Below are positions 2,358 through 61,029 of a DNA stretch of 64,000 nucleotides, in pieces. Positions within the stretch are counted from its first letter, which is position 1. Each line of letters starts with the position of its first letter. The DNA comes from Imbricaverruca yamaguchii. Taxonomy: Eukaryota; Arthropoda; Thecostraca; Neoverrucidae. Location of the stretch: the NCBI GenBank assembly GCA_034440575.1, contig JAOTOL010000994.1, positions 1-64,000 of the forward strand, given 5' to 3'. Both the position numbers and the translations under genes were made by a program. The notes beneath the pieces are model-generated. The model worked only from the letters and a program-made list of their open reading frames with translations. It did no database searches and had not been told where the DNA came from.

Positions 2358-2438
2358 TCATGCATATTGATTGATTATTTGGGCTTAAGGGCACATCAAC
2401 TGCTACTGGTTATGTAGTGCCAATTATCATGCATATTG
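2358..2438 (-). mobile_element. Micro-retroposon copy 1 (3'-hairpin module) with 12-bp TSD
   Basis: A 57-bp insert (2370-2426) is flanked by perfect 12-bp direct repeats TCATGCATATTG at 2358-2369 and 2427-2438. On the minus strand it ends GTGCCCTTAAGCCCAAATAATCAAT, the same core and simple-repeat tail as the other copies. The target duplication shows it is a real insertion. Confidence 0.8.
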
Positions 2439-3511: not shown

Positions 3512-3694
3512 TGTACCTAATGTATTTACAATCGGTATTTGTATTTGCGAGATTTAACAAACCGATTCCATAAAATGGATTAATATTTGGTTTGTGTCAG
3601 AATACAGTCAGATACATTTCACACACATGAACAAAAAATGAAAGCGGCAAGACAACAGTATACAGGTGAAAACCGAACACGTGAAGTCAATTTA

Positions 3695-4348: not shown

Positions 4349-5558
4349 TTTTTTTTAGGGATTGGTACGTGCCGACAAGCAGTAGGGTAGTTTTAGTGGG
4401 GTTCATCTTCAAGGAGTTGGATGTGAAGTAAGACTGAATAGCAAGGATGGTGCTCTCCTGCCGGGATTTAAGAACGGGTAATTCATCAGGGTGTGCAGAG
4501 TCTAGCAGCTGGGTGTCGTCGGCATATGATACCAGGCGTCCGTATGGAAGGTATGCTCGCAGGTCATTCATGAAGATGCTGAACAGCAAGGGACCAACCA
4601 GGGATCCCTGAGGAACACCATGGGATAGCGGAAGGGATAGAGCGCCGCCCCTCACCACCTGTCGCCGGTCAGTAAGGTAGCTGCCAAACCACCTCGGGTC
4701 GACGCCGTACCACTGCAGCTTCCGCAGGAGGATATCATGGTCGACGCTGTCGAATGCTTTGCTTAGGTCGATTGAGATGACCGAAGCGATGTGACCAGTG
4801 TCGACACGACGTGTGATCCACTCGACAGCGTCGACCAGGGCGTCCTCCGTCGAATGGCATGGCCTGTATGCATACTGGGAGGAGGAAAGAATGTGATTAG
4901 TGACTAGATAAGAGGACAGCTGGATACATACTACTTTTTCACATAACTTGGATAAGACTGGCAAAATAGAGATAGGACGAAAGTTACTGGCGACATCGCG
5001 AGGCCCAGATTTGTGAAGTGGAACAACCGAAGCAGTTTTCCACGAGGTAGGGAACACGCAGGAGGCGACAGAAGTGTTAATGATGTGAAGTAGGTGAGGC
5101 CCGAGAACCGGAAAACAGTTGCGGAGAGCGTGCAGTGGTACGCCATCGACGCCAACCGCTTTCGACGAAGACATCTCACATATGGCTCTGAATAGTTCGG
5201 GCAGGGTCACCGGGTGTAGCCGGAGGCCGGTGGTAGTCACACAAGGTGGTCGCGGAGGGATGAGTGGAACGCCGCGGTTGCCAGCAACGAGATCAGCGGC
5301 AATGCGTGGGCCAACGGAAGCAAAGTGACGATTAAATTCGTCCGCCACCGTCGCTGCCAGGCCCCTCACGGCCCCCTCCCCTCCCCCGGCCGGTCGGGGC
5401 GCAAAGTCCCGGATGTGGCGCCAGAAATTGGCACGGTCTGTCAGCATTTGCTCACACACAAAGTCACGCCTGGCTTTTGCAAACGCACATTTCACACGGT
5501 TTCGCAGCCTCCGATAAGCGACCAAGTAATAATCCGTGCGATAGCTCCGCCAAGACGG
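4349..5558 (-). CDS. LINE ORF2, reverse transcriptase domain
   Basis: Reverse transcriptase of the CR1-like LINE. In the open frame ending at 5648 (441 residues, the first 30 or so lying in element A) the hallmarks appear in order: KAVGVDG (about residue 163), SWKTASVVPLHKSG (202), NFRPIS, HSTEDAL, motif A IDLSKAFDSVDH (294-304), motif B GVPQGS (344) and motif C SYADD (374-378) with both catalytic aspartates. All key residues look intact. The upstream reading into element A (CIQSTLP) is an artefact; the true preceding residues CPWVV lie at 8248-8262. The domain copies LINE RNA into DNA at the nicked target. The frame is lost 3' at the T8 run. Confidence 0.9.
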
Positions 5559-5560
5559 TA

Positions 5561-5755
5561 GGGTGGATTGAATGCAACTTTTTGTTCGCAAATCAACTTC
5601 CGCGGGCTCAAAACACGTGCGCGTGCATCGGTAGAGACAAGACAACACGATTGCAAAAATATATAATATGTTCTAGATACTGCGCACGAATCGTTTTCAA
5701 AAATATTTCTTCGCCGCCAGGCGTCGAAGTCTCCATTGATTGAAGCATGGCACGT
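5561..5755 (+). repeat. Element A left terminal inverted repeat
   Basis: Begins GGGTGGATTGAATGCAAC. It aligns with the reverse complement of about 8050-8245 with gaps; the best blocks are AACTTCCGCGGG, GTGCGCGTG, the GCGCACGAA block near 5682 and GAAGTCTCCATT near 5726. Confidence 0.8.
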
Positions 5756-5846: not shown

Positions 5847-7586
5847 GTGCAGCAGAGTTCAGAGGCGAAGCAGCTCAGTGACATGGACGCAGACTTGGAA
5901 GAGAGCAGTGAGGACTCTGAAATGGATGGTGTGGAGGAGGCTGGTACTAGCTATTCTGATTCGCTAAGCTCTGATGACGACGTCTGTGGTAGTGGAGGAC
6001 AAAACCGCCGACAGCTTCCCAACTTCTCGCGAATGTGTGATCGGTATGGTACCTCTGACCGCTCCGCTGCCGGCTTGCTGAACGCAGCTCTAGTAGATTA
6101 TGGGATAATCACACACAACAGCAAGGCTGAGCTGGTTGACCGCAATAAAATCCGGCGACAGAGAGACAAATGGGGTAAGAAGGAAGTGGATGAGAGCTCA
6201 AAGGAAAACCGACGTGATCGCCTGGTGGGATTTTATCATGATGGTGGAAGATATAACGCTGAATAGAGTGGGTAACAAGAACAAGATGGTCAAAGAACTG
6301 CATGAAGTAGTCGTTGCTGAACCAGGCCACCGGTACGTCGACCATGTGTCTCCACAGAGCGCCGGTGCTGCGGACATAGCCAAAGAGATGTTGGCTGTCA
6401 TTCAGGAAAATGATGCCCATCCAGTGGTGATAGGGTCGGACGGCACATCGGTGAATACAGGCCGCAATAGCGGTGTTAACAGGAGGATTGAATTGGGTGT
6501 TGGTCGTCCTCTCCAGGAAGCTATTTGCGGCATACACACCAACGAACTGACGCTCAGACACGTGTTCAAGGACGCTGATGGCGAGACAAGTGGCCCGTCC
6601 TACTTCAAAGGGCCGATTGGTTAGTTAGTTATTTGGGCTTTAGGGCGCATCGACCAGGCCGATGGGTAAGGCCATTCAGGGTGATTTGACTGCACTGCCC
6701 CTTGCTCAGTTTAAGCCTGTGAGGGGTCAAGTGCCTCCCATTCCAGCCGATGTTCTGAAGGAGATGAACAAAGACCAGCAGTACCTGGGCAACATGTGCA
6801 TGGCAGTCAAAGCAGGACCAGGACAAGTCCTCCAGCGTGTGCTGTCTGCATACCCTGGTCCAATCCATCAGGCCCGCTGGGTGACTGGCGAACAGGATCC
6901 TCCGCCTGTACGTGTCGACGGAGTCGCCAACGCCGAAGCTAGTGAGGGTGGTGTTCATGATACTGAACCAGTACGTCCCTGGGTGGTTTATGTACAGAGT
7001 TCGCCCACACATCAGTGATGGAGCTAAAAACTTGTTCGAACTGATCCGTCTGTCGAGGAAGTTGCCTGAAGATGACCGCAACATTGTGCAAAAGGTTCTG
7101 AAACGCAACGAGTTCTGGGCACACAGTGAGAACATCCTCGCCGCCATGCTGACCGACAGCCGACAGGAGACGAGGGTGGCGGCCGTGGAGCGGATCAGGA
7201 TGTGCCGAGCCAAGAGACGCGAGGACGATGACCCGGATGACATCAGACAGTTCGTCGTTCCGGACATCAACTTCGATGCCGATGACTACCAAGAAATGAT
7301 CGACTGGACAAATGCAACAGAGCCACCACTGACCATGGACATGTCAAACGAGGAAATCACAGCGGCTGTGCAATGTGAACACCCCATGGACTTCAGCGCA
7401 TTTCCATGTCACTCACAAGGCGTGGAACGTTGGGTAAAGGAGGTGACAGATGCGGCACAGAAGAAGGCCGGGTACTCGGCACGCCATGCTCTGATTCTGG
7501 TCAAAGCACGGTCCAGAGCCGATCTTCCGGTGATGGATACAAAGAAGGACTTTTACAGCTGGCTTCAGGGAGACGGTCGTTCCTGA
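5847..7586 (+). pseudogene. Element A transposase-like protein, broken
   Basis: Reading across three breaks gives one protein of about 550 residues. Its acidic N-terminus (MDADLEESSEDSEMD) is followed by LPNFSRMCDRYGTSDRSAA, YVDHVSP, IGSDGTSVNTGRNSGV (Asp near 6440), LHEVV, IHTNELTLRHVF, SGPSYFKGPIG, ARWVT (near 6870), LRLYVSTESP, FMILNQYVPGWF, NEFWAHSENILAAMLTD and a conserved DYQEMIDW tail. From memory, proteins with GDGTNVNTG, HTNELPLRHL, ARWLTTANRILRLYV and HPENLLLAMITD recur in many invertebrate genomes, usually unnamed. They look DDE-like (GSDGT as first Asp), but I cannot place the triad. Breaks: a 1-nt shift near 6240, the 36-bp micro-retroposon at 6621-6656, and a shift near 6887. 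Sitting between TIRs, it is the likely transposase of element A, now inactive. Confidence 0.75.
6611..6666 (-). mobile_element. Micro-retroposon copy 2, inside element A's gene
   Basis: A 36-bp insert (6621-6656) lies between GGCCGATTGG (6611-6620) and GGCCGATGGG (6657-6666). On the minus strand it reads TGGTCGATGCGCCC, then TAAAGCCCAAAT and the tail AACTAACTAA, a 5'-truncated version of the module. It splits GPIG from KAIQGD in the transposase reading; removing it and one duplication makes that junction continuous. Confidence 0.85.
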
Positions 7587-8049: not shown

Positions 8050-8245
8050 TGTTATGTTCTTATAACAAGGCAAAGACTAATGGAGACTTCAACGCTTGGC
8101 GGGGCTAAGAACCGTTTCAAAAACGTTTCGTGCGCGGTATCTATAATATTTTTGAAAAATGTTTAGCCGCGATTTTCTATCTATGAGCATTCACGCGCAC
8201 GCGTTTTGACCCCGCGGAAGTTGGTTTATAATTTTCGATCCACCC
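8050..8245 (-). repeat. Element A right terminal inverted repeat
   Basis: Reverse complement starts GGGTGGATCGAAAATTATAA and matches the left end over about 190 bp at roughly 70% by eye. Confidence 0.8.
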
Positions 8246-8247
8246 TA

Positions 8248-9520
8248 CTACCCACGGGCAACATGCCCGGCGGGGGTGGACGGTCTTGAATGGACAATAC
8301 ACGTTCACCGCCACATGCCACAAGTGCATGAACTCCTTTAGTTTCGCGTCCACCCCCGCTGCCCGGTACATACTGCTCCAGTCCGCCTGCAAGAAATGAA
8401 GGCACAAGGCGTCCCAGTTAATCTTCCGCCAGGGGCGATAGGTGAAGGACGCCCGGCGACACCGCAGCCCGCGGTAGGGCACGCGCACAATTATTGTCAG
8501 ATGGTCAGCAATCGGTACGAGCGGCAGCTGAATGGCAGACTCAATATCCGGGACATTGGTGATGATATGGTCCAGCAGTGTTGCCGTCGGCCACAGATGG
8601 GTCGGCTGCCGGACAAGCTGAGAGAGGCCGAGATCCTGCAGCACCTGTCCGTAGCGACGAACACCGGGGCAGTCGGAACGAAGAAGGTTGATGTTCACAT
8701 CGCCCAGGCAAAAGGTTGGCTTGCCGAGACTGATGGCGGCACGCAGCTGGTATTGTAGCTCGTCCAGACCGTCAGATACGGGCTCCGATGGCGGGCGGTA
8801 AACCACCCCCAAAGTGACAGCACGGCGTCCCCCACCACTCACAGACACCCACAGCGTCTCGCAGGACGAACCAGTACTTGATATAGGCAGCGGCTTCATA
8901 TTGAACTTTTCCTTACATAGGATGGCGACGCCACCGCCTCGGGCTGCAGCAGCTGGGCGGCCACGGCCCGACTGGGCCGGACGGTCACGACGCACTAGTT
9001 CATAGCCTGGAAATACTAGGATTCTGTCGGACACGGCGGAAGAGAGCCAAGTTTCGGATAAGCACATAAGGTCTAGTTTGTGTTCTTGCAGAGTGCGAAG
9101 AACACAGTTCATTTTCGGCACTAATGACTGGACGTTAGCATGTCCAATCGCCAGGGTGCGCACCGGCTCAGGGCAGGTGGCAGCACGCAGCGTATGCTGA
9201 GTCTGACCGATGGTGAGGCGAGACGGAATGACGAAAGAAGAAGGGAGCCTGTCGCGGAAACGCTGTTGATCCGTGACCCGGTTCATGCGATGTCGCCGCT
9301 GCTGAACACGACATCCGGCGCGGATTTCTTGGCCGGCAGTCTCCTGTACTACCACCGGTCCCGTGGACGGAGAGTGGAACGAGCAAGATGGGCGACACTC
9401 TACACGACGGGGGGCTTCCCCAGTGCCGGGAGTGGTATGCAGAGCAGCACTCCTTTGAGAGCACGCCAGTGAAATGCTCGTTGCAGGGCTCTCCTCTTCA
9501 CCTGCTGTCCGCCCCGGCAT
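8248..9520 (-). CDS. LINE ORF2 N-terminal part with AP endonuclease domain
   Basis: An apurinic-type endonuclease that nicks target DNA for the CR1-like LINE. After about 120 residues of serine/arginine-rich leader, the domain shows IGHANVQSLVPK, LDLMCLSETWL (catalytic Glu), GGGVAILCKEKF, LGVVYRPPS, CLGDVNINLL (Asp/Asn pair), LLDHIITN and IADHLTI (final Asp-His). The usual SDH is ADH here, a mild oddity that keeps the catalytic Asp and His. The genuine reading ends at CPWVV (about 8250) where element A begins; the further residues down to 8177 belong to the transposon. The frame joins directly to the RT part at 5558. The leader start is uncertain: the first Met is at 9520, and ORF1 may overlap it. 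Confidence 0.88.
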
Positions 9521-9978
9521 CCTCGCCTCCTCAGCCGTCGTCGGCGTCCGACCGGGACAGATTTGGCGGGGCGGACCAAGCCAGCGAACGGCTCGGCAAT
9601 GTTGACGTTAGCGCCGGCCGCGGCCGGACTCGGCTGGCCCGGGTCGGTACTGACTTCCGGACCCGCAGGCATATGGGGCGGCTGTCCTGGGGGGGGAGTT
9701 GACGGGGGTGGAGGGGTGCGAAAAGATTGATGGAGGTGTTCTTGCGCGTTTGCGGCTGGCTGGCTGGTGGCTGTACGGCGGCTGGAGGGCATGACGATAG
9801 TTCTGTACTTTTTGCTGGTTTCTCGGTTTCTGTACTTTTTGCTGGTTACTTCTTGCTGGTTCTGTACACTGATGATGAAATTTCGATGACAGGACCGGGA
9901 ACATGGTTTAATTATGAATCTTGTCACACGCTTACGAAGGTTTTCTCGGAAAATGTGGCTTGCCCCCACACAATACAC
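9400..9978 (-). CDS. Possible LINE ORF1, proline-rich and basic
   Basis: An open frame of 192 residues upstream of and overlapping the endonuclease ORF in another frame. It has a Pro-rich segment (TPPPPSTPPPGQPPHMP), an Ala/Pro linker and a basic run (GRRRRLRRRG). Position and charge would suit a small RNA-binding ORF1 of the CR1-like LINE, but there is no zinc knuckle or RRM. It also contains a short tandem (SKKYRNRETSKKYR) from a repeated DNA segment near 9805-9850. It may be only 5' UTR that happens to be open. Confidence 0.35.
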   Translation of the reverse strand: MYCVGASHIFRENLRKRVTRFIIKPCSRSCHRNFIISVQNQQEVTSKKYRNRETSKKYRTIVMPSSRRTATSQPAANAQEHLHQSFRTPPPPSTPPPGQPPHMPAGPEVSTDPGQPSPAAAGANVNIAEPFAGLVRPAKSVPVGRRRRLRRRGCRGGQQVKRRALQRAFHWRALKGVLLCIPLPALGKPPVV

Positions 9979-10149: not shown

Positions 10150-10192
10150 AGCGGCCGGGGGTCGCTGTCAAGCGCCCGCCACCCGGCCGCTA
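10150..10192. promoter_or_regulatory. GC-rich hairpin at LINE 5' end
   Basis: Perfect 10-bp arms AGCGGCCGGG and CCCGGCCGCT flank a GC-rich loop of about 20 nt. It lies within about 10 bp of the inferred first base of the LINE, so it could be a 5' structural or promoter element of the LINE RNA. The structure is seen; the role is inference. Confidence 0.5.
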
Positions 10193-10199
10193 CATTGTA

Positions 10200-10350
10200 C
10201 ATTTGAGGTAATGTATCATAACCTCAAATGTATCATAACCTCAAGTGTATAATAACCTCTAATGTATCATTACCTCTAATGTATCGTAACCTCAAGTGTA
10301 TCATAACCTCAAATGTATTGTAACCTCAAGTGTATCATAATCTCAAATAT
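10200..10350 (+). repeat. 17-bp minisatellite, right arm
   Basis: About eight units of the same monomer as at 3313-3511 (AATGTATCATAACCTCA), same orientation. The first unit is inverted (ACATTTGAGGT...ACCTCAAATGT), forming a short palindrome at the LINE junction. Confidence 0.85.
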
Positions 10351-10619
10351 CAGCTGACGACGCCGGGCCATGGCAAGCGATTTTCGTCCGTACGGAGGTC
10401 TTACGTTCTTCTGGACTCTGCCTAGTGGCGCCAGTGAAAAGAACCTAATGTTGGTATATTCTCCGCTAGATGTCCGGGTTCATTAGCTTTACAGCGCCTG
10501 GATACTGCCAACTTTGGAAATTTGCAAATCTTGGTGAAATCTAGTGGTTTTTGCTGGGTCCTTTTCGAGGAGAAAGTTATTGGCTCTTTACGATTGCTAC
10601 GACGAATAATCCACGTTTT
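10351..10619. other. No gene seen
   Basis: A 70-residue open frame on the minus strand (10634-10422) has no motif I recognise. Nothing else is visible. Confidence 0.4.
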
Positions 10620-12843: not shown

Positions 12844-14143
12844 TTACTTGCAGCAACTATCACAAACAAAGAAGACATATTTGGCCCCATCCTCCAACCC
12901 GGGAAAGAGGGCCAGATGGTCCTCTGGGACACATTCAATATGTGTCGTGCGCGCGCAAAAGTCACACTTTATCCAGACATGAGCATCGCCCGCGACATCT
13001 TCTGCCTCCCATGATGCACTGCAGTGGAAGCAGGTCCAGTCGTCCGTCTTCTTGGATGTCGATGGCAATGCTGCAATGTTGCTGTCCTTCCTGCCCTTCC
13101 TCTTCTTCATTGTCATTGCTTCCTCCAATTCCTCCTGATACTGCCGCCACCGGGGACTTGACACGCATGCCGGAAGGAGCTCTTTCCGGAGTCGTTTGGA
13201 AGGTGTAAGTTGGGGGACTGGAAGGAAGCGTACGTCCTGAAATGCCGCGGCGACGGTGGCTTCCTGTGCCGGCCTTTTTGATGGGGGTGCCGTGGCCGGC
13301 CCACCAACGAGGCTCGGGATGATGAACTCATCGACGATGAAAATGAGATCATCACTTGTTTCTGCGGAAGCGGCGACGATCCCTGGTGCCTCGGTGGCGG
13401 AGGTCCCCGACGAGGCGGCGCCGGCGGCGGTCTCTGACGAGACGGCGCCGGCGGCGGTGCCTGACGAGGCAGCGCCGGCGGCGGTCCCTGACGAGACGGC
13501 GCCGGCGTCGGTGCCTGACGAGGCAGCACCGGCGGCGGTCCCTGGCGAGACGGCGCCGGCGTCGGTGCCTGACGAGGCAGCGCCGGCGGCGGTCCCTGAC
13601 GAGACAGCGCCGGCGGCGGTCCCTGACGAGACGGCGGTGGCGGTCCTCGACGAGGAAGCGGCAGCAGTGGCGATGCCCAGTGGGGCGACGTCAGAGGTCC
13701 CCGACGAGGCGGCGGGGGCATCTGGTGACGCGAACCGGGAAAACGAAGGGCCACTCGTCCTATCGTCTCCCGTCGTTCCTGCGGAAGAAAAGCAGCGAGA
13801 ATATTTAAAGTTTCGTCACCGAAACACCGGTTAGCTAGTTGAACAGAATGACTACCATGCTGCTGGCAACTTGCTAATTATCGAAACCTGGATGCAAAGT
13901 TGTATGTTTTAACATCTATGATATAATATGGACATATAATGTGCATATTATGAGCATAGAAATAAAAACAGTGTTATGAAATATGGATCTGAGGAGGACT
14001 ATTATTTTCAGCTGACGTCTAATTAGGGCGAATGTAGGGCAGACACATCCCCCTTCTAGTGAAGCTAGCGCGCCGTTGAAATATGCTGGCATGGAAGCTT
14101 CCATATCTGCCCATTTCGTTTATACACCCGTGATAAATATATA

Positions 14144-19120: not shown

Positions 19121-19959
19121 TATCCTGTAGGTAGGACTATGTTGATCAGCAGTTTTAGTGCTATGAAGGGCTACTTTCAGGGATGGGATCCAATGTAGGT
19201 GCCTGGCAGGTACCTAGGTATTTGGGTATATATAGCAATCAGTATTTTTGTCTTAAAATGTGTTGGATTTTTTCTCTCTGAATAAATACTATGTTTATGA
19301 ACATGATTCAAAAGATACAACCACTTGTTTTCTCAGGAACTGCTTATTTCTTTGTTTGTCATAGCAACAACACTATAATGTGCCATTTATGCCTCACTAC
19401 TGTTTTTTGTGCCATAATTGATCCATCCTTCACAAATTTACCAAGACCTGTGCCTATGAAGTCATCAATTGTATTGACCTCCATTGACAGAAATAATCAT
19501 TTGTGGAGAAATTTTGTGGTTGCATTGTCTTAAGCACACGAAAAAGTATCACTGAGAATAAAAACTTAACTCTCTGAATATATTTGCCCCTGTTTGTTGC
19601 TAAAGCAGGGCTGTTGCATGGACCATTTTTTTGGTAGCTTTGATTTTGGTGGCATTTGATCAATTCATTCAGTATAACATGAAGATTTTCCTCAGAAATT
19701 TTAGAATGCTGAACCAACCTAGCTGGATATGTTGGACTGTGGTGATTTATGAGATATTGCATTTGAACATTCTTTTTTCATTCAGAATGTTGCCTTTTCT
19801 TGATAATTTCCTTATATTCTTGAATTTGAGCATTGAATGACATCACTTGCAGGCTTCTGGCTTCAGAGCTGAAACTACCACAATTATATGTAGTTGAAGC
19901 ATCGCAAGGTTATAGGTTGACACTGCAAAGTGACTCCCAAATCTGAAGCCAGTGACTTC
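19121..19959. other. No gene seen
   Basis: AT-rich, probably intronic to the USP gene if that gene starts upstream. Short open frames (19291-19533) show no motif. Confidence 0.4.
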
Positions 19960-20790
19960 CAAATTTGCTCAGCAGGCCAGCCTTCTTGCTGTGCAGGCAG
20001 GCCAGCTTGCTGCCTGCTTGCTGTGCAGGTGGACCTGCTTACCAAGCATGCTGGCCCACTTGCCTTGCAGGTGTACCTGCTTACCAAGCAAGCTGGCCCA
20101 CTTAGATGTCAGGTGGACCCACTTGCTGTGCAGGTGGACCCACTTGCCATGCAAGCTGATCTGCTTGCCATGCAAGCTGACCTGCTTGTCATGCAAGCTG
20201 ACCTGCTTGCCATGCAAGCTGACCTGCTTCCCATGCAAGTTGACCTGCTTGTCATGCAAGCTGACCTGCTTGTCATGCAAGCTGACCTGCTTGCCATGCA
20301 AGCTGACCTGCTTGCCATGCAAGCTGACCTGCTTGCCATGCAAGCTGACCTGCTTGCCATGCAAGCTGACCTGCTTGCCATGCAAGCTGACCTGCTTGCC
20401 ATGCAAGCTGACCTGCTTGCCATGCAAGCTGACCTGCTTGCCATGCAAGCTGACCTGCTTGCCATGCAAGCTGACCTGCTTGCCATGCAAGCTGACCTGC
20501 TTGCCATGCAAGCTGACCTGCTTCCCATGCAAGTTGACCTGCTTGCCATGCAAGCTGACCTGCTTGCCATGCAAGCTGACCTGCTTGCCATGCAAGCTGA
20601 CTTGCTTGATGTGCAGGTGGACCTGCTTACCAAGCAGGCTGGTCCACTTTCAGGGCAGGTTGGCTGGCCCACTTGTTGCTCAGGCCAACATGCTTGCTGG
20701 TCGGGCCGGCCAATTTGCCGTGCATGTGAGCCTGTTTGCCAAGCAGGCTGGCCCACTTGCCAGACCGGAGGTCTTGCTGGGCAAGCTAGA
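19960..20790 (+). repeat. 21-bp minisatellite in USP intron
   Basis: The core at about 20140-20610 is a near-perfect array of CTGCTTGCCATGCAAGCTGA plus C (21 bp), over 20 units; flanks are diverged units. The unit contains the inverted pair CTTGC/GCAAG. The period is seven codons, so frames on both strands stay open for hundreds of codons (LLAMQAD, CLPCKLT, HGKQVSL, MASRSAC); these are not proteins. Confidence 0.9.
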
Positions 20791-21654: not shown

Positions 21655-22335
21655 CGTCAGTGAATACGTCACTGAGTGAGTGAGTGGCGAGTTAGTGAAT
21701 GAGCAGGTACCTGGGTGGGTGAGTGATTGTGCTGGTGGGTGATTACGGAGCGGATAAGTCGGCGAGTGCAGGCTATGTATGTGCAGTGTGATGCTGTATA
21801 GGGAACTGGTTTTATGAGGGCCATGAAGCCTCCATTGTGGTCAGTGGTGACTTTCAATGGATTTTGCAATTTTTCGTTCTGCCATGTCTACAAATCTAAG
21901 ATTGTGATGCTGAGCGTATTAGATGATGCAACGCTGAGCATCACAAGCCAACAGATTTGTAAAGACAGCAGAACTAAACAATTGCAGAATCCAATGAAAC
22001 TAGGAACAAACAGGCATCCATAAGCACAGTGGTAGCTTCATGGACCTTCCTAAAACCAATTCCCTGCATAGCATGATACTGCATGCTCACTTGCACTCGC
22101 CGACTTATTTACTTCGTAATGACTCACCAGCACGGGGTGGGTGATTACCCACCCCATCATTCGTCCAATGGGCGCTGAATGACCAACCATGGTCGATGCG
22201 CCCTAAAACCACAATCACACACACACACACACACACACATCATTCGTCCAGAAGTTCACTCACTTACCAGGTACGCACTCACCCACTAACTCGCCACTCA
22301 CACGTACACTTACTCGCTGACTTATTCACTCGCTC
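21655..22335. repeat. Foldback element: long imperfect inverted repeat
   Basis: Nearly the whole 680 bp folds on itself about a centre near 21922. The left arm GGCGAGTGCAGGCTATG...GGGAACTGGTTTTATGAGGG pairs with the right arm read backwards GGCGAGTGCAAGTGAGC...GGGAATTGGTTTTAGGAAGG. Near the centre TTGTGATGCTGAGCGT pairs with ACGCTGAGCATCACAA. Outer parts are GAGT/ACTC-rich. Arms are about 75-80% alike by eye. Micro-retroposon copy 3 (22155-22250) is inserted in the right arm. No coding. Confidence 0.8.
22155..22250 (+). mobile_element. Micro-retroposon copy 3, 13-bp TSD, (AC)n tail
   Basis: CATCATTCGTCCA occurs at 22155-22167 and 22238-22250. The 70-bp insert contains ATGGGCGCTGAATGACCAAC, then CATGGTCGATGCGCCC, TAAAACCACAATC and an (AC)n tail. 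GGGCGC/GCGCCC and GACCA/TGGTC make an imperfect hairpin. This is the best full-length copy. Confidence 0.9.
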
Positions 22336-22467: not shown

Positions 22468-22656
22468 CCTATGTACTTGTTGAGTGGACGGGTAGCCTAG
22501 GGGTAAGTTGCTCGTCTCACAATCGAAAGGTTGTGGGTTCGAGTCTCACCTGTCGCTACTCTTCGCCCGCGACCAATCGGCGTGAGAGATTGGCGATGCT
22601 ACATGACTCAACGGTCGATGTGTCGTAAAACCAATGACCAACCTATGTACTTGTTG
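22468..22656 (+). mobile_element. tRNA-derived SINE (Val-like head) with 15-bp TSD
   Basis: Perfect duplications CCTATGTACTTGTTG at 22468-22482 and 22642-22656 flank a 159-bp body. The head has a pol III A box (GGTAGCCTAGGGGTAAG) and B box (GGTTCGAGTC); the CGTCTCACAATCGAAAGG region resembles tRNA-Val. A central block CGCGACCAATCGGCGTGAGA..TTGGCGATGCTACATGA is shared with the SINEs at 31533 and 35227. The tail CAACGGTCGATGTGTCGTAA plus AACC resembles the 3' hairpin module of the I-like LINE. Confidence 0.88.
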
Positions 22657-25570: not shown

Positions 25571-26295
25571 GCTTAGACGAACTTGTGAAGTGATCCGAAG
25601 AATGGCAAATGAAATTTAATTTTGATAAGTGCAAAATCATGCATGTAGGTAAACAGCATATGAAGGCTCCATACCTGATGGGTGGCCAAGTGCTATCAGT
25701 GACTCAACAGGAGAAGGATTTAGGTGTTATTCTAAACACAAAACTGGGGCATCAGAACAGACCAAGGAAGCCAGGAAGAAGGCACTGAGAATGCTCGGGG
25801 CAATAAATATGAATGTATCATACAGAAGTGAGGAAGTGATCAGGAAGCTTTACTGTGCATACGTCAGGCCACATTTGGAATACTGCATCCAAGCTTGGTC
25901 TCCTAGCTATGAAAAAGATTGTTGGCTTTTAGAGAGAGTACAAAAGAGGGCTATAAAAATCGTTAATGGCATAAGCAACCTGGCATATGAGGAAAGATTG
26001 AAGAAATTGAATATGTTTTCACTTAGATATAGAAGGCTGAGAGGAGATCTCATCGAGGTCTTTAAATTTGTCCATGGTCTGGAGAGCAGCAGTAGCAGCA
26101 CATTGAACATCTTTAAAAACAGCATAGACAATCACTATAAGAATAAAGGGCTTGCTTTTCAGTATTACAGGGAGGGGTGATTGACAGATTTGGTGGGCAA
26201 CTAGTTCAGTGTACAGAGTGCAACCAAGAAGGGCCCTTGTGGCTCATAGTTCCACTCATTTTTTTATGTCTTTATGTCTTTATGTCTTTACACTG
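25571..26295 (+). pseudogene. CR1-like LINE 3' fragment (post-RT domain plus tail)
   Basis: Reads WQMKFNFDKCKIMHVGKQ, then KDLGVILNTKL, (frame shift) ASEQTKEARKKALRMLGAIN, KLYCAYVRPHLEYCIQAW, LLERVQKRAIKIVNGI, YEERLKKLNMFSLRYRRLRGDLIEVFKFVHGLE. This is the conserved region after the RT of CR1/L2-group LINEs, a different family from the 3.5-10.2 kb copy. Compared with the copy at 48361-49100 it lacks about 60 codons after HGLE and joins directly to SSSTLNIFKNS. It ends in a (TTTATGTC)n tail at 26264-26290. The 1-nt shift at 25755-25765 is also present in the 48-kb copy. Confidence 0.88.
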
Positions 26296-31205: not shown

Positions 31206-31532
31206 AAAAATCACGCATTTTGCAGTACAGCACGACATAAATACGGCAACAAAAGTTGTTTATCAATCAGACTTTAATACGAGGAGCATGCATCTGGAGA
31301 AGACGAGACTGCCAAGATTGAGGAAGGCCCTCACTCCCACTGCCGATTGTTTCTCGGTTGTGTACTCTGTGGTGGAAGTGAATGTGCATTTTGGGCGCAT
31401 GGACTGCCTTCGTCATTTTGCGCACATGAATATATATCTTCCGGCGCCCAATAGAGTGCGTATTAAAACGATATATTGAGGCAGCACAACGCAAGACATA
31501 TATTGGGAGAAGCAAACACATGAAGCAGAAAA

Positions 31533-35226: not shown

Positions 35227-35420
35227 AAGAAGCCGCATTGCTGGTTGGTTATTGGCTTCACGACACATCGACCGTTGATTCATGTAGCGTTGCCAATCTC
35301 TCACGCCGATTGGTCGCGGGTGAAGAGTAGTGACAGGTGAGACTCGAACCCACAACCTTTCGATTGTGAGACGAGCAACTTACCCCTAGGCCACTCATCC
35401 CCAAGAAGAAGCCGCATTGC
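35227..35420 (-). mobile_element. tRNA-derived SINE (Val-like head), 15-bp TSD
   Basis: AAGAAGCCGCATTGC flanks at 35227-35241 and 35406-35420. The minus-strand body (164 bp) is the same family as the SINE at 22468: GTGGCCTAGGGGTAAGTTGC, CGTCTCACAATCGAAAGG, GGTTCGAGTC, CGCGACCAATCGGCGTGAGA and tail CAACGGTCGATGTGTCGTGA. It is inserted in the decayed satellite. Confidence 0.9.
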
Positions 35421-36189: not shown

Positions 36190-37320
36190 AACGGACAAAT
36201 GTACGTAAAGCAAATGTATGCGTGACAGATGTCCATACTGAAATGTACCGAAGCAAATGTACGTAGGCATAGATGTACGTATGGTGATCGTTCGTCAGCG
36301 CATATGTACGTGTGACAAATGTAGTTAAGCGCAAAAGTACGTATACGCAAATGTACGGAAGTGCAAAAGTGTGTATGCCCAAATGCTCGGAGACGCAAAT
36401 ATACGTATGCATTACATGTTCGTAAATATACGCAAGCGCAAAAGTACATATGGCAAATGTACGTATGCGCAAATGTACGCATGTACAAATGTACGCATGC
36501 GTAGATGTACGCAAGCGCAAATGTACTGATGTGCAACTGTACATATGCGTAAATGTACGTACGCACAGAAGTACGAATGAACAAAGGCACGTCAGAGCAA
36601 AGGTACGTATACGCAAATGTGCGTATGCACAAATGTATGTATGCGCAGATGTACGCAAGCACAAATGTAACTAAGAGCAAATACAGACATGTGCAATTGT
36701 GCGCATGTCTAAATGTACGTAAGCGAAATGTACATAATCTCCAAAAGCACCTATGCGTAAATGAGCGTATGTACAAAGGTACATATGCGCAAATGTACGT
36801 AAGTGCAAATGTATGTAAAAATAAAGGCATATAAGAGCAAATGTACGTAAACGTACAAGTATGTAAACGAACATGTATGTAAAGTAAATGTATGTATAAG
36901 CCAATGCGCGTACAGTTACGCATTCGTATCTTTACGTTTTCATACGTTTGGCTGGGTATGTATGCCTTACGCACATTTGCGCTTACGTATATTCGCTTAT
37001 GGACCTTTACCATGCGCATAATTGCTCTTGTGTACATCTGCCATACATATATTTCTCATGAGTATTTTTGCGCCTTCGTACATCTGCACTTACGTTCATC
37101 TGTCTCATGTAAGTTTGCGCATACGTCCATATGTGCCTGTATGCATTTGCTCTGACATACTTTTGCACTGACGCATATTCGCAAACACGCGTACCTACAT
37201 TTGCGATTACGTACTTCTGCGCATTCGTATATCTGCTCTGATATATAATTGCGCGTACGTACATTTGCGCTTATATACATTTATGCTAACGTACTTTTGC
37301 GCTTACGTACACTTACTACA
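36190..37320. repeat. 16-bp minisatellite array that reverses orientation
   Basis: From 36190 to about 36905 the unit reads GCGCAAATGTACGTAA-like. From about 36925 to 37320 it reads ACGTACATTTGCGCTT, its reverse complement, so the array forms a huge imperfect hairpin. There are about 70 degenerate units. Long open frames through it encode only reiterated YVSANVRKRKCT-type residues and are not genes. Confidence 0.85.
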
Positions 37321-40723: not shown

Positions 40724-40796
40724 AGCCGAGTTAGTTAGTTATTTGGGCTTTAGGGCGCTTCGAACAGAATTGATAATTCGCACCCAAGCTGAGTTA
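40724..40796 (-). mobile_element. Micro-retroposon copy 4, 10-bp TSD
   Basis: AGCCGAGTTA (40724-40733) and AGCTGAGTTA (40787-40796) flank 53 bp. On the minus strand: TGGGTGCGAATTATCAATTC, then TGTTCGAAGCGCCCTAAAGC and CCAAATAACTAAC. Inserted in a satellite unit (GCTGAGTTATTCA). Confidence 0.8.
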
Positions 40797-46382: not shown

Positions 46383-47914
46383 TGGTGGTGGTGGTGGATT
46401 GGAGTTTAGGGGCGCGTCGACATCTAGGGTCATTTTGCGCCCATAACTGGAATGCAATCAATCTACGGTGCTGCTATCATAGCTCACTATCCATCTTCAC
46501 GGATGGGGGTATATCACGTCAAGGCGAGCTTGTCGAATGAACATAAAAATATTTCCAGACGCAACGGCCTCAGAGTCGTTCCCTATAAACATACGTAAAG
46601 AAGAGTCGGTGTTCAACCGTCCTAAAATCTGGCGTCGCAGAGGTTCTAGCAGTGTACAGCCAACTAAAACATGGTACACGGTAAGTGGGTTAGAACAGCG
46701 CGGACATACGGGACGGTCATTACCGGTCAACATATAACTGTGTTGCAAAGGTATCCAATCAATCAATATGCAATCAATATGCAAAGGTACCTGTAGTCGC
46801 CTATTCTCAATCGACAGAGCATTACTTCTTCCCGACGTTTGGTTCGGTGAGAGGATAGCCATTTTCCTAGTGTTGGTTTTAAAACCTTGAGCTTGCTACA
46901 CTTCGAATTCCAGGATCGTTGCCATTCTGAATGTTGGGGTTTAAGGGCGCATCGACTGCAGAGGTCATGCAGCTGCCATTCTGAATGTATACTTGACAAT
47001 ATGGTAGGGTATATATCTCTTGGAGGGAGCCGTAGATGGACCACACGGCCATTGCTAATGGCGTGCTTGGCGGTTATGTCAGCAGCTTCGTTTCCGGCGA
47101 GTCCAACATGGCTGGATGGTTCCGATGTTGAGCAACATTGCATGCGTATCACGCGCCCAATAACTTACGGCGTAGTGCAAGAGGTGGCTCGTCTACCTCT
47201 ACCACTACACTAGCAGCCGTTGAGGTGCGAAAGGCTCCAGTAGCAGATGCGAAGAGCTACACCGTGGATCACATCAAGGCGACGCTTGGATGTGGCACAC
47301 GCTCCGTCATAAATAAAACAACCATAGTCAATTTTAGAACGAACGAGCGATCAATACATAAGAAGCAAGATAAATCTATCTGCTCCATACGAACATCTAG
47401 AGACTGTACGCATTACCTGTAGTCGCTTTGCACATTTATGTGCAAGGTCGTTGATATGGGTGGTGTATGTCAGTGGGCGATCCATCCACACACCCAGAAA
47501 CTTGGCAGCTGGTTTGAATGGTATATGGCGTCCATTGAGCATAATCACGGGGTCAGTACAAGAGCGTTTGCGACAGAAGTGCACAGCGGTGGTTTTCGAC
47601 GTAGACATTACGAAACCGGTTTTGTTGCACCAATCCTGCACCTTCCGAACAGCCATCTGAAGTTGTCTCTCAACCGTATGCACAGAGCGTGAAGAGGACC
47701 ATATGGCGAAATCGTCCACGAAAAGCGCTCTCCCTACGGAAGTTGGCAGCGATGTACCCACGTCATTAATTGAAATAGCAAACAATGCAACGCTCAGTAC
47801 GCTCCCCTGCGGAACTCCGTTAGCTTGTGAAAAGGTGCCAGATAGGGAATTTCCTATTCTAACACATGAGCAATGACCATGTTGATCATATATCAGTAAT
47901 TTGAATTCTAGCAT
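46383..47914 (-). pseudogene. I-like LINE 3' part: RT, RNase H remnant, zinc motif, 3' hairpin
   Basis: From 47914 leftward: the RT palm with NGVPQGSVLSVALFAISIND (motif B) and LFVDDFAIW (motif C, VDD), then KFLGVWMDRPLTYTTHI and SKIDYGCFIYDGA, the usual I/jockey-type connection. At 47150-47050 comes the end of an RNase H domain (HVGLAGNEAADITAKHA). Most of RNase H is missing between them, a deletion plus frameshifts near 47160-47220. The C-terminus has CPRCSNPLTVYHVLVGC, the CCHC-like motif typical of I and jockey LINEs. The 3' end (46450-46383) is TATGGGCGCAAAATGACCCT...GTCGACGCGCCCCTAAACTCC plus an (ACC)n tail: the same hairpin module as the micro-retroposons. The copy is 5'-truncated and dead. 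Copy 6 of the module is inserted at 46921-46988. Confidence 0.85.
46921..46988 (-). mobile_element. Micro-retroposon copy 6, 14-bp TSD, inside the I-like LINE
   Basis: GCCATTCTGAATGT occurs at 46921-46934 and 46975-46988 around a 40-bp insert (46935-46974) reading AGCTGCATGACCTCTGCAGT, then CGATGCGCCCTTAAACCCCA on the minus strand. Insert plus duplication is 54 bp, so the LINE frame is kept and shows HSEWQ twice. Confidence 0.9.
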
Positions 47915-48360
47915 GGAAGGTTTGGCCAGGTTAGATTAGGTCATCCAACATTTTTTCTTCATTTTGAGCATTACTTCTTATGGTATAGTACCCAACTCCA
48001 TACCCCTTTTGGGAAATATTTTGCATCTGAACTGAAAAGTATGCATTTGCAGAGGAAATGTGTGGTTCCTTCATATTACACACACTTATAAACTAGAATG
48101 GTAATAAGAAATTTGAGAAAAAGGAAAAATTTCCTTAAACTGCAAATATGCATTTGTTCCAGTGAGCTCAGTGTTAAATTATTCCAAAAATAGGGGGCAA
48201 TATACCACCTTCTGAACACTCAATCAACATCCTCTCCAGGGAAGTATCAACATCCTGCTACTTTACACAAAAGTACTCCTCTGTGGAAAACTGCTTACAT
48301 GGGTCCAGAAGTTCAGATATCTGGGGCACAACATTGAATGCAACATGAGTGATTGTGTAG
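47915..48360. other. No gene seen; old dispersed repeat
   Basis: Contains GAACTGAAAAGTATGCATTTG (48029), shared with 32974 and 54919. Nothing coding. Confidence 0.4.
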
Positions 48361-52936: not shown

Positions 52937-53000
52937 ATGGGCGCTGTATGACCAAAGCAGTTGAAGTGCCCCTAAGCCCAAGTAACCAACCAACCAATTA
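52937..53000 (+). mobile_element. Micro-retroposon copy 7
   Basis: ATGGGCGCTGTATGACCAAA, then GCAGTTGAAGTGCCCCTAAG and CCCAAGTAACCAACCAACCA. A weak duplication CCCAGCAT/CCCAGATAT flanks it. Full-length module. Confidence 0.7.
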
Positions 53001-53209: not shown

Positions 53210-56200
53210 ATGGATCCTACTGCACCTAAAGTATCAATTGTGCAAATATCTGAGTATATCGGCGATAAAAAACGTTGTGCCATTGAGGGGGAAGCCGTAC
53301 TAGATGCAGGGCACATAATTTCTTGTGGTACAATTGGGAAAGAACCTGGCAAGGTTACAGTGCAGGCGCTCTGCGTAAAATACAGCCACCCACGCGAGAA
53401 GCCCCATGAGCTACATGCTGTGGTTGAGTGTGGAAGATTCTGGGTACAGTGCTCCTGCAAAGCTGGTCTCTCAGAAAGCTGCAAGCATTGCATTGCTCTG
53501 CTACTATACCTAAACAGGTGAGGAAAGTGAAGTGTTTAATGATTGCTATTATTGACAGAACTGCACATGGATGTAATATTGAAATAGCAAATTAGCTTTA
53601 GCAAGGCGTAAAACCAGTAGGTTCTGACCCCTGATGACATCAGAATTTCCACCTATGCCTGGCATCATGCAAATGTGGAAGCCTTTTTGAATTATTGATG
53701 TTGGGAATATCTGATTCACCCAGAAAGGGCACTTGTGTCTCATAGTTGCACTGGTCTATTTATGTTTTATGTCTACATTCTCTGAAATATGTTGTTATGC
53801 CAGAGCTTGAAGCTCATGCACTTTAGTATTGCTAGCACAACACCAACCAAAAGAAGCAATGCTATGCAACAGCAACATTTTGATTGACCTGCTAGTGGTC
53901 ACACAACACCGGTATCCACCATGATAATTTTATGCACTTCAAACTCCTTTTAGGGTAAGAGAGAAACACGACAAAGTATTTCAGATACTTGTATTCTTAT
54001 TCAGATAAGGCATTTCAAGAAGACAATTTGTTGATTATGCATACTTCTTGAAGTGACTAAGATGATGTTCAGTTTAGATACAAAATAAATCCATTCCATG
54101 TTTTTTTTTACCATCAAGCAAAGGAGATAAGGCTACGCTTGGATGATTCTATTTTAATTTGCACATTTTTAGAAATGTTTGTGCATTGTTTGAGGATAAT
54201 TAATTTCAATTCTTCTCCCAACTTGAAATGTTACACTAGGATAAGTTTTAAGATGGTAAATTTGTGCTTAAGGTGTTTTATAATTTTGGGGAATTTCTTT
54301 TTCCAATGCAATGTTTCTGGATGTGATCAACGTGATGTGACTACCTATTTTATGTGCAAATGCTCACTTTTCAGTTTGCATGTAAAATAACATGAACAAG
54401 GGGACTTTGAATTAGGTAGCATAGCTGTATGCCCATTGCATTATATTTGCCCCAAAACCCAATAAACAAACAAGAATTAGGCAACCTAACTAAAAAAAAG
54501 TAATTATAGAAAATAATATGGATTAATCTAACCCAACTCCCATGTATGCAAGAACCAGATTGAAAAAAGTGGAATAGAAGCGCCCCTAAGCCCAAATAAC
54601 TAACTGAAAAAAATGGAACATGCTAAGCCTTTTTCACTATGTTCCGAACCAAAAAACAAAGTAACATAACCTATCCAAACCTGCTGTTGGGAAAGAAGCT
54701 GATTAAATCAAACAAATGTGTATATTTTTAACAAAAACTGACCAAGCCTTACCTAACCAACACTACAACACCCACCCTTTAAGTCTGCTTCATGCAGGGA
54801 AATATGTAGAATACTTGTCTTGTTAATACAATGTAGCACAATACTTCCTATAAAATACCATCATACCTTTTCTTTGAAACGATTTCACCTTCAACCCCTT
54901 TTGATATCATCTCCCATATGAACTGAAAAGTATGCATTAGAACCAGAATTGAGGGGTCACATCATCTTAGTCAGTTCAAGAAGTATGCTCTTACAAATTG
55001 TTTTCTTGAAATTCCTTGGGAGCCCCAGAAGACATTTTAGAACACTGACATAAATATGCCTTGACAATGCATATCCAACATCAATGCAAATTGTTTTCTT
55101 GAAATTCCTTATCTGAATTAAAATACAAGTGTCTCAATTAGTTTGTCTGTCCAGGAACTTGTGCAAATTTCAGTGTATTGAAACATCAGTCAACAGGTGC
55201 AAATATTTGGGTGCTGATGCACATCATCAAGGCATGTGTCATGCTTTTCATCTAGACAGACACCCAGGCCTCAGGAGACATTTCGGAACACTGACATAAA
55301 TAGACCTTGACAATGCATACCAATGTCAATGCATATTTGTAAGCTGATGCAGGCAATGCATTAGGAGGCAGATCTACCAATTGTATTATGGCAGGGGGCA
55401 CTTTTTGAAGAGAGGATTCATGTATCCAGAGGTAGCATCTTTTTAACCTTACATAAATTATCTCAGCAGAGGAACACTGATTGGGGGTGGGTACACTCAA
55501 GCATCTGAGGGGCAGCCCTTCTCACTCAAAGAGAGGTTGTATGTGTGGTGTGGCTGTGGCAGACCTTGCCTAATGATCCACCACTATAATGCGTATTTGC
55601 ACCAAAGAGCACCAATGCTCATTAATGGCTGATGCCTGGTGTGCACCAATTTTCTGTTCTGGTCATCCTTCACTTCCAGAAGTTACTTCCTCGTTTCTTT
55701 CTGCCAAATTCACCTGAATGCCTTGCCAATCTGACCTGTTTTGAAAAACAAGTGCACAGCAGTAATTGTTGTTCAACACATTTGTGTGTAAAATAATATA
55801 TAAAGCATATCTAGGGTCTACAATTGTTTGAAATTTCGGTAAACCACAGCCGTTATCTAATGGTCTTCTTCTGGATATAAAGAAGGGATTATCAAAACTT
55901 AGAACCCTTGAATTCCTTCGTATGTTCAGTAACATGTTTGTTTGCCAATGTATGTTCGGGTATGCATGATGCTTCTGATGGTGTTGTGTATATTCATTAT
56001 TGATGTTGTTTCACCTTCTCAGGGTATCCCTGCAAGAGCTGAAAGAGTTGAGCTGCACTGACACCACCCAGTTCTGCAACTGCCGGCGTATGTCCACCGG
56101 TACCAGTAGAAGAGCTCTGTCATGTGGGTACTGTTAAGTATCAGGAACGAAGTGGTCCATCAAACCCTGGGCTGTACACAGATGATCTGCTGTCCGTTGC

Positions 56201-57056: not shown

Positions 57057-57169
57057 ATAGGCCATCACGGTTGGCCGTCTGTGACTTGGCTCGCGGACCA
57101 TCAGTGGTGCAGGGCGTCCACCATCTTGTGCAGCGTGCCGGCCGTCAGGGTGCCACGCGCCTGCTGTCT

Positions 57170-58235: not shown

Positions 58236-61029
58236 CTAGGCGTCGATCGCGAACTTGTCTTCCGCAAGAATTGGAGAGCACAGGTTGGTAAGCCCACAGA
58301 TGACATTGAGCAATGATGACACATATGGCACCATCCTCCACGGCAGTTTCGCATTCAAAATACTGAATTGCCTCAAACGTCCGATTGCCCTTTCAACGTG
58401 TACTCGAGCTCGAGCAAGATCTGCAGTGTGCAACGCATCAGACTTAGGCAGCTGTTTCTGCTTGCGGAGGTACGGGGGCCGATGGAGGGCGATGCCGCGT
58501 TGAAAAAGTGCATCATCTATGAGAAAGCCTTTATCGGCCATCACGGCATCTACAAATGGTTCCAGCTTCTCGCACAGTCCGCTATGCTCAAATATAAATT
58601 TGTCGGACACTCGTCCACCATACACACGACTCACAAATGTCACAGTACCCGCGGGCGATACACCAACCATAAACTTCACAGTGTGTGTGCCTTTATAGTG
58701 GGAGTAAGTACCCAGCCTACAAGAGAGACATTTTGTACGCTCGACAGGTGCCTCAGTGCAGTCAACTACCACTCTGGTGTTTTTGTATTTCCCAAAGCAA
58801 CGTGGCATATTTGCCATTACCTCGGCTTTGTCTGGCCACAAGATTGCGGCACTTAGCACTGCACTTAGAGTTGGCAAAGTCTGATAGAAGATATTACTAC
58901 ATGCAGTTCCGGATTTACGACAGAGTATTGCCAAAAAAGCTGAAAAAAAGATTGAGCTTAAGCTTCATACATACAAGAATGATGCCTGTGGACATGTCTA
59001 TATCCTTCCCTACTTGTTTCTTGCAGCAGGTGTCAAGTGCATTAAGCAAAGCAAAACTGTTAATTCCAGTTGATACTCGCAGCTTTTCTTCTGTATCCAG
59101 CATGTTCATGATCGTATGGTTGTGCTGGTTGATGACGTCTGGTGATGATATTCCGTGCTGTTTTAGAACGGAGTGCACGGCGTCCATGCTGGGCAGCTGA
59201 GGTACATTTTCAGTGTCCACCAGAGTTTCATCAGGCACCTCCGCCGACTCTTGGTAGGCAACTGAAGGAGTTACAATTTCGATGTTATGCAAGTATGAGA
59301 AATTATGTACATACACAGATATTGCACATGACAATGGAGGCTGGGGCTTCGTCAATTTATGAACGTGACCAAAACCAGTTGAACCAATTGTTCCCATGCA
59401 GTTCCACGCCAAGTGTGCAGAAGATTGCATGGCCACGCACCTGTACACCTGCTAAAATATTACAAACAGCATAGTATTGAATGCTGTGATATCAATAGCA
59501 AGACTAATGTATGCCAAGAAAAGGCACAGCCAATTATCTGAACTATGCGATGGGAAAATTAACAGCATAATTCTGATCAAGGCACTGACCTGACTCCTGG
59601 AGGATGGTCTCAGGGTCAAAGATGCTGTGGACGTGCTCCCCCCATGCAGGAAGAGGAGCTCTCAGTTCCTCATGCTGTTCCTGTACATTTTCATCTCTGA
59701 GTTGTTTTCTCAACCGGCGGAAATCAAGCTGAGCATTCTGCTTTGCAGAAGTAGCTCTAGAACAGCTCAAAACAGGCAGATTTTGAGAAGGCAAGGTGTT
59801 CCTCTTCAAGTAAGGTTTCTTCGATGGGTACGCTGCAATTAGCAACAGAAGTTAGCATAAGAGCATGGAGAGCCACATCTTTCATCCGATCAGTAAGTGG
59901 TCTGAGACCTGAAAAGGGTAAATGGGCACTGAATGACGAAACCTGGTCGATGCACCCTAAAACTCAAATAACCAACCAACCAATCAATTCGATTAGTGCC
60001 TACCTATATTTCATAGCAATTTTGAAAAATAACAGCAAAGCATGCCATATTAGCTTGCAGAAAAATGGGAATTAAATATTTATAGAGTAATCATTCTATT
60101 TTTCACTGGCACATGTTCATGGATACATCAACCACTGCGATTGCCGACATTGGTGCAGCATTAATGTGGGACAAGTATAACAATTACAACATGAGTATGC
60201 ATGCTACATTACCCAACATTAGGTATACAATAGTGGTGAATCCCTGATTATGCAACACCAATAGCAGAATTACTCTGGAAAGAAGACCAAGAAAGCGAAG
60301 AATCATGAGACCAAAATGTAGCAGTTTTTATCTAAGCTAATGTACTGTCAAGCAAATGAACCTTCAGAGTGAATATTAAGAGGTAAGAAAATAGATTTAG
60401 AATGATATGTTACTTGGAAAGTGTTTGGTTGAGCGATGTCCATAAGATGCCACTGGTAAGATATTGTATGCAAAATATATCAAAAGGGTAATAATAAGAG
60501 ATAGACAAAAAAGAATTCATTTGATGTAGAAGAATATGGTCAGTTGCATAATAGGCTTCACCACGAGTCCAAAACTGGCACAAAACTTTATATAAATACC
60601 AAATAAATTTGAACGCATCCCTTATGTGCACATGATTTAAATACCGACAATTCCTCAAGGTTGCTTAATTTTACCTTTTGCATTACATGCTAATTGTACA
60701 TGTAGATATGCAGTTTATCATTATGTGTATGAAAGCAATATGGTAGAATTACATGCTGGTAACACCAATAGTTTTATGAAGCCTTCATCCATATATACAT
60801 ACCAGAAAGTATATAATCATCCATCTTGAAGTGCTTGCTGCATACCTTCATGTGCCTTGATGCTTTCTTGCCCATTTTTAAAATGTTGTGCCACTTTTTT
60901 GAAAGTAACTTATCTCTCGGGAAGCGATGGAAGCTGACTTCAGGTTCCCTCCTGTGCAATGATTTGCATTGTGGAACACACCAATATGTATTGGACTTGC
61001 TCACCTTATCCACTTGATTCATCATGTTC
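58236..61029 (-). CDS. THAP + HTH + DDE transposase of element C (three exons, one frameshift)
   Basis: Exons 61029-60803, 59832-59590 and 59261-58236 join in phase (donors TTTCTG/GTATGT and GAGTCAG/GTCAGT; acceptors ATTGCAG/CG and CTTCAG/TT). Exon 1 is a THAP zinc finger (WCVPQC, FHRFP, KKWHNIL, VCSKHF: C18, C22, C64, H67 of the frame), which binds DNA ends. Exon 2 is a polar linker. Exon 3 has the helical HTH_Tnp_4-type segment (TGINSFALLNALDTCCKKQV..VCMKLKLNL) and a DDE_4/Harbinger catalytic core: VVVDCTE (Asp), VMADKGF (Asp) and HVERAIGRL (Glu). The catalytic set is complete. The frame slips by one near 58930-58950, at A6/A7 runs; this is either a real lesion or a homopolymer miscall. Stop at 58236. 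Confidence 0.85.
59918..59992 (+). mobile_element. Micro-retroposon copy 10, in transposase intron
   Basis: AATGGGCACTGAATGACGAA, then ACCTGGTCGATGCACCCTAA, AACTCAAATAACCAACCAAC and CAATCAATT. Full-length module in intron 1 of the THAP/DDE gene. Target duplication not obvious. Confidence 0.75.

Follow-up and report, generated by a model that had tools for sequence, protein, structure and literature searches.

The window, which is the whole 64,000-nucleotide stretch of contig JAOTOL010000994.1 of Imbricaverruca yamaguchii that was analyzed, contains short free-standing copies of a GGGCGC...GCGCCC hairpin, a LINE that ends in a hairpin of this kind, and two tRNA-headed SINEs with a related 3' hairpin (Table 1). 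The sequence-only reading had listed ten places for the short unit, and the sequence it described was present at all ten: nine of the places hold copies that stand alone, and the tenth, 46383-46450, is the 3' end of the LINE. The list itself was right as far as it went; it lacked the old hairpin at 31380-31427 and the tails of both SINEs. The direct repeats named in the same reading were found at seven of the nine free-standing copies, exact at four of them and with one mismatch at three. No convincing flanking repeat was seen at the 52937 and 59918 copies, either in the printed flanks or in a scored test that allowed one mismatch. In that test, six of the nine window copies reached 8 points and the 40724 copy reached 7; 1.9% of swapped-flank controls scored 8 or more. 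The 48-nt unit of the 22155 copy differs by one base from that of the other young copies printed.

Table 1. Hairpin copies and related elements in the window (TSD, target-site duplication; RT, reverse transcriptase).
Feature	Position	Strand	Remarks
Older hairpin-only copy	2358..2438	-	AATC-like tail; exact TSD TCATGCATATTG
Hairpin copy consisting of the 3' half	6611..6666	-	TSD with one mismatch
Young (AC)n-type hairpin-only insertion	22155..22250	+	Exact 13-bp TSD; TSD 22155-22167, extra A 22168, 48-nt unit 22169-22216, tail to 22237, TSD 22238-22250
tRNA-headed SINE with related 3' hairpin	22486..22643	+	AACC tail; tRNA model E=5e-4
Old LINE-type hairpin	31380..31427	-	Profile match E=2.4e-7; also a row of that profile
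tRNA-headed SINE, second copy	35243..35400	-	93% complementary to the 22486-22643 copy
Older hairpin-only copy	40724..40796	-	(AACT)n tail; 10-bp TSD with one mismatch
(ACC)n-type LINE 3' end	46383..46450	-	Hairpin GGGCGC...GCGCCC and (ACC)n tail
Hairpin-only copy nested in the window LINE	46921..46988	-	Exact TSD GCCATTCTGAATGT
RT fragment of the window LINE (RVT_1)	47351..47935	-	Pfam E=4.5e-15
Older hairpin copy	52937..53000	+	(AACC)n tail; no clear TSD
Old diverged hairpin copy	54409..54481	+	Exact TSD GAATTAGG; weak profile match E=0.03
Insert of about 31 nt (3' half of the hairpin and AACT tail)	54562..54618	+	13-bp TSD with one mismatch
Older hairpin copy	59918..59992	+	(AACC)n tail; no clear TSD

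The window also holds several tandem arrays and other coding remnants. Arrays of a 17-bp unit in like orientation (3329-3540 and 10175-10403) flank minus-strand LINE frames for an endonuclease (8177-9607) and an RT (4323-5672), as if the LINE had inserted into one 17-bp minisatellite. Arrays of a 16-bp, GCAAATGTACGTATGC-like unit occur in opposite orientations (36253-36877, 36967-37314, and 45347-45849) and could possibly form a large fold-back. Tandem arrays of 21 bp (19929-20753), 63 bp (57042-58097), and 27 bp (13342-13720) are open in several reading frames. A YqaJ-like recombinase frame (56052-57056) lies near a DDE_Tnp_4 transposase frame (58236-58964) on the opposite strand.

The genome searched comprised 767 Mb in 1430 contigs. 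The exact 34-nt young hairpin, a word that picks out the youngest type, occurred 570 times (306 + 264), and its reversed control not once; the exact 27-nt 3' part of the hairpin occurred 704 times. When the first places listed for the 34-nt and 27-nt words were compared (85 and 100), 68 were common to both. A rough estimate from the per-site change on the 3' side, among the matches listed, suggests that the hairpin is complete in about 96% of the young copies.

A profile was made from 20 short, LINE, and SINE tails and used to scan the window plus 200 kb; its rows and the 13 stretch-defining places lie within the DNA searched. It gave 44 matches at E<=0.1 versus none on reversed sequence (48 versus 2 at E<=1 and 56 versus 5 at E<=10). 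The 41 matches at E<=0.01 were sorted with the help of printed flanks and BLAST into the 13 stretch-defining copies, 18 other free-standing copies (11 in the 200 kb and seven in the window), seven tRNA-SINE tails (one assigned by eye), two LINE ends, and one undecided case. The 11 free-standing copies correspond to about one per 18 kb, with stretches L031-L045 picked around known copies or beside the window. If the 200 kb were typical, extrapolation would give some 40,000 free-standing copies in the genome, a figure with a wide error.

Fifty-one AC-type copies were read with their flanks: 30 loci, an extra copy in L015, and 20 copies obtained with a core-only query. The query for the 30 loci started with the window copy's own duplication and so favors (C)AATGGG, and the core-only set was drawn from 40 tied places among 1160 candidates, of which the 20 taken lie on smaller contigs. 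Three loci (L002, L003, and L008) have common flanks, and therefore at most 49 of the 51 copies are independent. The sequence-only reading would have been refuted if every match had proved to be the 3' end of a long element, but isolated short copies with flanking repeats do exist. An exact TSD of at least 8 bp was present in 47 of the 51 copies, versus 1.3% with swapped right flanks, and 50 of the 51 were isolated, with L069 alone ending a longer element. The longest exact direct repeat averaged 12.6 bp in the 51 copies versus 4.3 bp with swapped flanks, and the duplications were of variable length, mostly 8-16 bp. Among the 11 older free-standing copies in the 200 kb, seven scored at least 8 with one mismatch allowed, versus 1.9% of the swapped controls.

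The young unit begins at (A)/TGGGCGC, which is the foot of the hairpin, and continues for 48 nt into a microsatellite tail. The TSD ended within 3 nt of TGGGCGC in 18 of the 20 core-only copies: the repeat abutted this motif in nine, overlapped it by 1-2 nt in six, and was followed by extra bases in three (A twice, ATA once). As for the other two, L066 has its repeat about 5 nt from the motif, as judged by eye, and L069 ends the longer element. The earlier description of copies truncated only at one end was thus too loose, since the young copies have one fixed 5' boundary and some older ones (e.g., 6611 and 54562) do end within the hairpin. The microsatellite tails are variable and occur at the 3' end only; outside the repeat they measured 7-24 nt, with a median of 13 (46 copies). 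Two young hairpin insertions lie about 900 bp apart in L015. A hairpin insertion at positions 4053-4096 of L041 has an exact 13-bp repeat and no microsatellite tail.

For 47 insertions, the empty site was reconstructed by deleting the insert together with one repeat and joining the flanks, and the result was compared with the available sequence. Clean, uninterrupted paralogous empty sites were found at three of the 47 sites (L004, L022, and L010). The empty site of L004 matches window positions 48363-48588, 52323-52543, and 26090-26284 as well as L031 and L050 (91-93%, at most one gap); that of L022 matches L050 (95%) and L034 (90%), both ungapped, and that of L010 matches L032 (91%, one gap). 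The joined flanks of L030 resembled several dispersed repeats (75-82%, many gaps) and those of L057 a single one (73%). Other junction matches (L020, L023, and others) represent the same locus or tandem arrays and prove less, and most of the 47 sites had no match across the junction in the available sequence.

Target-primed retroposition, to which the sequence-only reading had likened these insertions, is supported by the variable-length TSDs of the AC-type copies and of all five headless LINE-type copies (see below), and by the paralogous empty sites. It is further supported by the variable tails, found on the 3' side only, and by the hairpin common to the LINE, a LINE-like family, and the tRNA-SINE. 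A tiny DNA transposon (MITE) with GGGCGC/GCGCCC inverted ends would also be very short and palindromic with direct repeats on both sides. However, the length of the repeats is variable, where such an element should make duplications of fixed length, the variable short-repeat tail follows the inverted repeat on a single side, and the LINE, the LINE-like family, and the tRNA-SINE all end in related hairpins. The MITE was rejected on these grounds, and we give it next to no probability. An assembly artefact, or chance matches to a G+C-rich palindrome, has nothing in its favor beyond the shortness of the unit. It was rejected as hardly credible, given the TSDs, the empty sites, and the zero counts obtained with reversed patterns and, at E<=0.1, with the profile on reversed sequence.

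The hairpin has an outer stem (GGGCGC/GCGCCC), an internal loop, and an inner stem (TGAC/GTCG). The young RNA folded into a 6-bp outer stem, an asymmetric loop, and a 6-bp inner stem (-19.8 kcal/mol, z -5.5), and the ACC-type hairpin of the LINE gave -14.7 kcal/mol (z -3.2). The folds of four older copies were unexceptional, with 31-58% of the shuffles at least as good for three of them and 7% for the fourth. In an alignment of 20 tails, 91.9% of the pair cells were standard, 11 cells had changes on both sides, and the covariation score was 0.242; for each of these values, 0 of 500 shuffles were as high. The number of pairs with changes on both sides (four) was reached by 113 of the 500 shuffles and that of further pair types (eight) by 331, in an alignment whose rows are related. 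The outer-stem pairs altered on both sides were G-C/C-G and G-C/A-U. The tRNA-SINE has its own version of the outer stem, and its head scored 27.7 bits with the tRNA model, just under the gathering score of 29. No Rfam match was found in the window at the gathering score, and ARAGORN detected no tRNA there. The hairpin stem contains GGTCGATGC, which we take to be a candidate B-box-like motif.

Two longer elements end in this hairpin. The first is the window LINE, which finishes with GTTATGGGCGCAAAATGACCC...GTCGACGCGCCCC and an (ACC)n tail; the ACC type therefore has the same 3' end as an RT-coding LINE, with RVT_1 upstream in the window. The last 318 nt of this LINE were scored at 40 places of 1640 candidates (window included), all 97-100% identical. 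The ACC-type 17-mer occurred 1418 times, 665 times with AGTTAT before it and 744 times with TTAT before it. Six ACC-type places without TTAT were read, and they proved to be five headless insertions and one LINE end with a changed base. The repeats of the five headless copies were exact at 12 and 13 bp or had one mismatch over 12-15 bp, and these copies start at TGGGCGC or within 3 nt of it. The headless share of ACC-type hairpins is perhaps about 40%, as estimated from these six reads on small contigs.

A known ribozyme at the hairpin foot was rejected, since positions 46370-46920 had no Rfam match even at E<=5. The LINE region had no match in E. coli genomes, nor did the ACC-type hairpin in prokaryote genomes, which is what an animal-like element should give. 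The names among the matches of the LINE and YqaJ protein searches were those of spiders (44-50% identity), a barnacle (38%), and a jellyfish (28%), with one bacterial label. The RT fragment of the window is 96% identical to protein P0001 on a 2-kb contig (JGI), which, judged from this identity, may come from the same or a close species or from the same element. At L076, the tail of a LINE 3' end runs directly into the start of a second hairpin.

The second longer element was met at L069, whose hairpin is identical to that of the short young copies and has no repeat at its foot. The 150 nt read upstream contain an open frame of 42 codons, with its stop codon ending 19 nt short of the foot. The 200 nt of L069 were scored at 40 places of 1363 candidates, 95-100% identical, and thus belong to a dispersed LINE-like family. 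No RT was seen within 150 nt upstream of the hairpin in this family, and the AC-type hairpin had no match in viral contigs. Of 100 exact young hairpins among the matches listed, 89 lacked the upstream TTA and 11 had it; eight of the 11 lie in the 200-nt family matches and three are undecided, and a base change at TTA may hide long copies among the 89. A 23-nt word of the family, located 93-115 nt upstream of the foot, had 23 occurrences, all among the 40 places, versus 570 hairpins. The copy number of the long AC type is a lower bound, because 40 of the 1363 candidates were scored and exact words miss diverged copies.

The word TTATGGGCGCTAAATGACC occurs 446 times in the genome. At 63 of the first 74 places listed for it, the exact young hairpin was not present, and these places are probably the ends of related long elements with other loops. 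Since they may end long elements, the high headless share may be limited to the youngest type, and most of the hairpins that differ from the exact young one may be linked to LINEs. Our strong claim is limited to the youngest type, in which the 18 of 20 core-only copies and about 89 of 100 listed hairpins end at the foot, because the TTATGGGCGCTAAATGACC places mostly carry other hairpins.

These counts bear on random 5' truncation of LINE copies, under which the short copies would simply be the most truncated ones. The LINE-type 3' ends, and the older copies that end within the hairpin, are what such truncation would leave. For the young AC type, however, plain random truncation is contradicted by the common foot: the truncation points are not scattered, nearly all of the core-only copies have their 5' end at one place, give or take 3 nt, and of the few listed hairpins that have the TTA of the longer element, most already reach 200 nt. 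A review describes most LINE copies as truncated at various positions and 100-1000 bp long (PMC3747384). We consider random truncation very improbable.

Hairpin-only insertions, their common boundary, and longer elements with the same hairpin are observed here, and the fixed foot is the new fact among them. As an explanation we prefer, at about an even chance, that hairpin-only retrocopies arise from LINE machinery that recognizes its own 3' hairpin and whose copying ends at the hairpin foot. The LINE enzyme would recognize this hairpin, which is followed by a short-repeat tail. It would nick the target and prime on the tail, and the insert would end between duplications of 8-16 bp; priming on the tail and insertion between duplications are supported by the tails, the duplications, the shared hairpins, and the empty sites. 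In the youngest type, copying would usually cover the tail and the hairpin only and end 1-2 bases beyond GGGCGC, as reverse transcription would stop at the hairpin held by the enzyme. A minority of events would pass the foot and give longer copies. The longer elements would then be the source of the short ones, and a protein that binds the hairpin may be presumed by analogy with zebrafish and eel LINEs (PMC4176376).

As to the cause of the stop at the foot, we favor a stop of reverse transcription for three reasons: the foot is shared by the AC and ACC types, the hairpin of the longer element is unchanged in the short copies, and the extra bases at the foot are often A, as in both longer elements, although such cases are few. 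The AC hairpin is more stable than the ACC hairpin and the headless share of the AC type is higher; a link between the two is only suggestive. Since the hairpin of L069 is identical to that of the short copies, a long RNA and a separate short RNA would leave the same sequence.

Hairpin RNA that was released or made independently is nearly as likely as a stop of reverse transcription. In that case, the template would be a free hairpin RNA. It could derive from longer LINE transcripts, by cutting or protection, or come from a source gene of its own, and the unit would be a headless mini-SINE of about 48 nt that parasitizes a LINE in trans. We hold this tentatively, as somewhat short of an even chance. 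It would explain the nearly uniform 5' end of the young copies and the short copies of several older types, and it agrees with the tRNA-SINE, which suggests that the machinery works in trans here. The exact young hairpins also far outnumber the LINE-like family copies found, the latter being a lower bound. Against it, no promoter-bearing source was found in the flanks read, and the young copies have no base that sets them apart from the hairpin of L069. The boundary of the ACC type is alike, which would require several source genes unless the RNA was cut from LINE transcripts, and the occasional extra A corresponds to the upstream base in both longer elements. A further step, which we think unlikely, would make the hairpin a retrotransposon in its own right: a headless SINE of about 48 nt that consists of just the LINE's recognition hairpin and tail, spreads through its own short RNA, and may number tens of thousands of copies of different ages. 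If it were self-standing, we know of no smaller retrotransposing unit.

If the LINE enzyme often stops at its own recognition hairpin, the genome would preserve traces of the point at which tail binding gives way to processive copying, which can otherwise hardly be observed in LINE insertion. With free hairpin RNA as the template, a retrotransposon could instead be as small as about 50 nt and would need no promoter-bearing head. On either reading, insertions of about 55-80 bp, tails and duplications included, could easily be taken for small indels or microsatellites, and hairpin-only insertions make the start and the end of such copying accessible to study. Hairpin-only insertion was not recognized in the literature searched, where the search terms were limited and subscription journals mostly absent.

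Stringent-type LINEs (ZfL2-1, ZfL2-2, and UnaL2) recognize a 3' stem-loop and, like the elements studied here, combine a LINE 3' stem-loop with a SINE partner that has a similar tail; hairpin-only insertions are not described for them in the part of that source available, and binding of the hairpin by the LINE is here presumed (PMC4176376). The short copies resemble 5'-truncated LINE copies in their LINE 3' end, tail, TSD, and missing 5' part, but the young hairpins end together at the foot instead of being scattered, and consist of about 48 nt and a tail. With tRNA-derived SINEs that have LINE tails (e.g., 22486-22643) they share the kind of 3' hairpin, the tail, the TSDs, and dispersed copies, as well as a 3' end in common with a longer element, which for the AC type is the LINE-like family in which no RT was seen. 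Unlike these SINEs, the unit lacks both the tRNA head and the body and has about one third of their length: 50 of the 51 AC-type copies comprise the hairpin, its 3' flank, and the tail, with no polymerase III-type head (tRNA, 5S, or 7SL). Unlike MITEs, it has an asymmetric tail, TSDs of variable length, and a LINE-type 3' end. Because the polymerase III head is missing, the unit is not a SINE in the usual sense and is best filed under LINE-driven retroposition.
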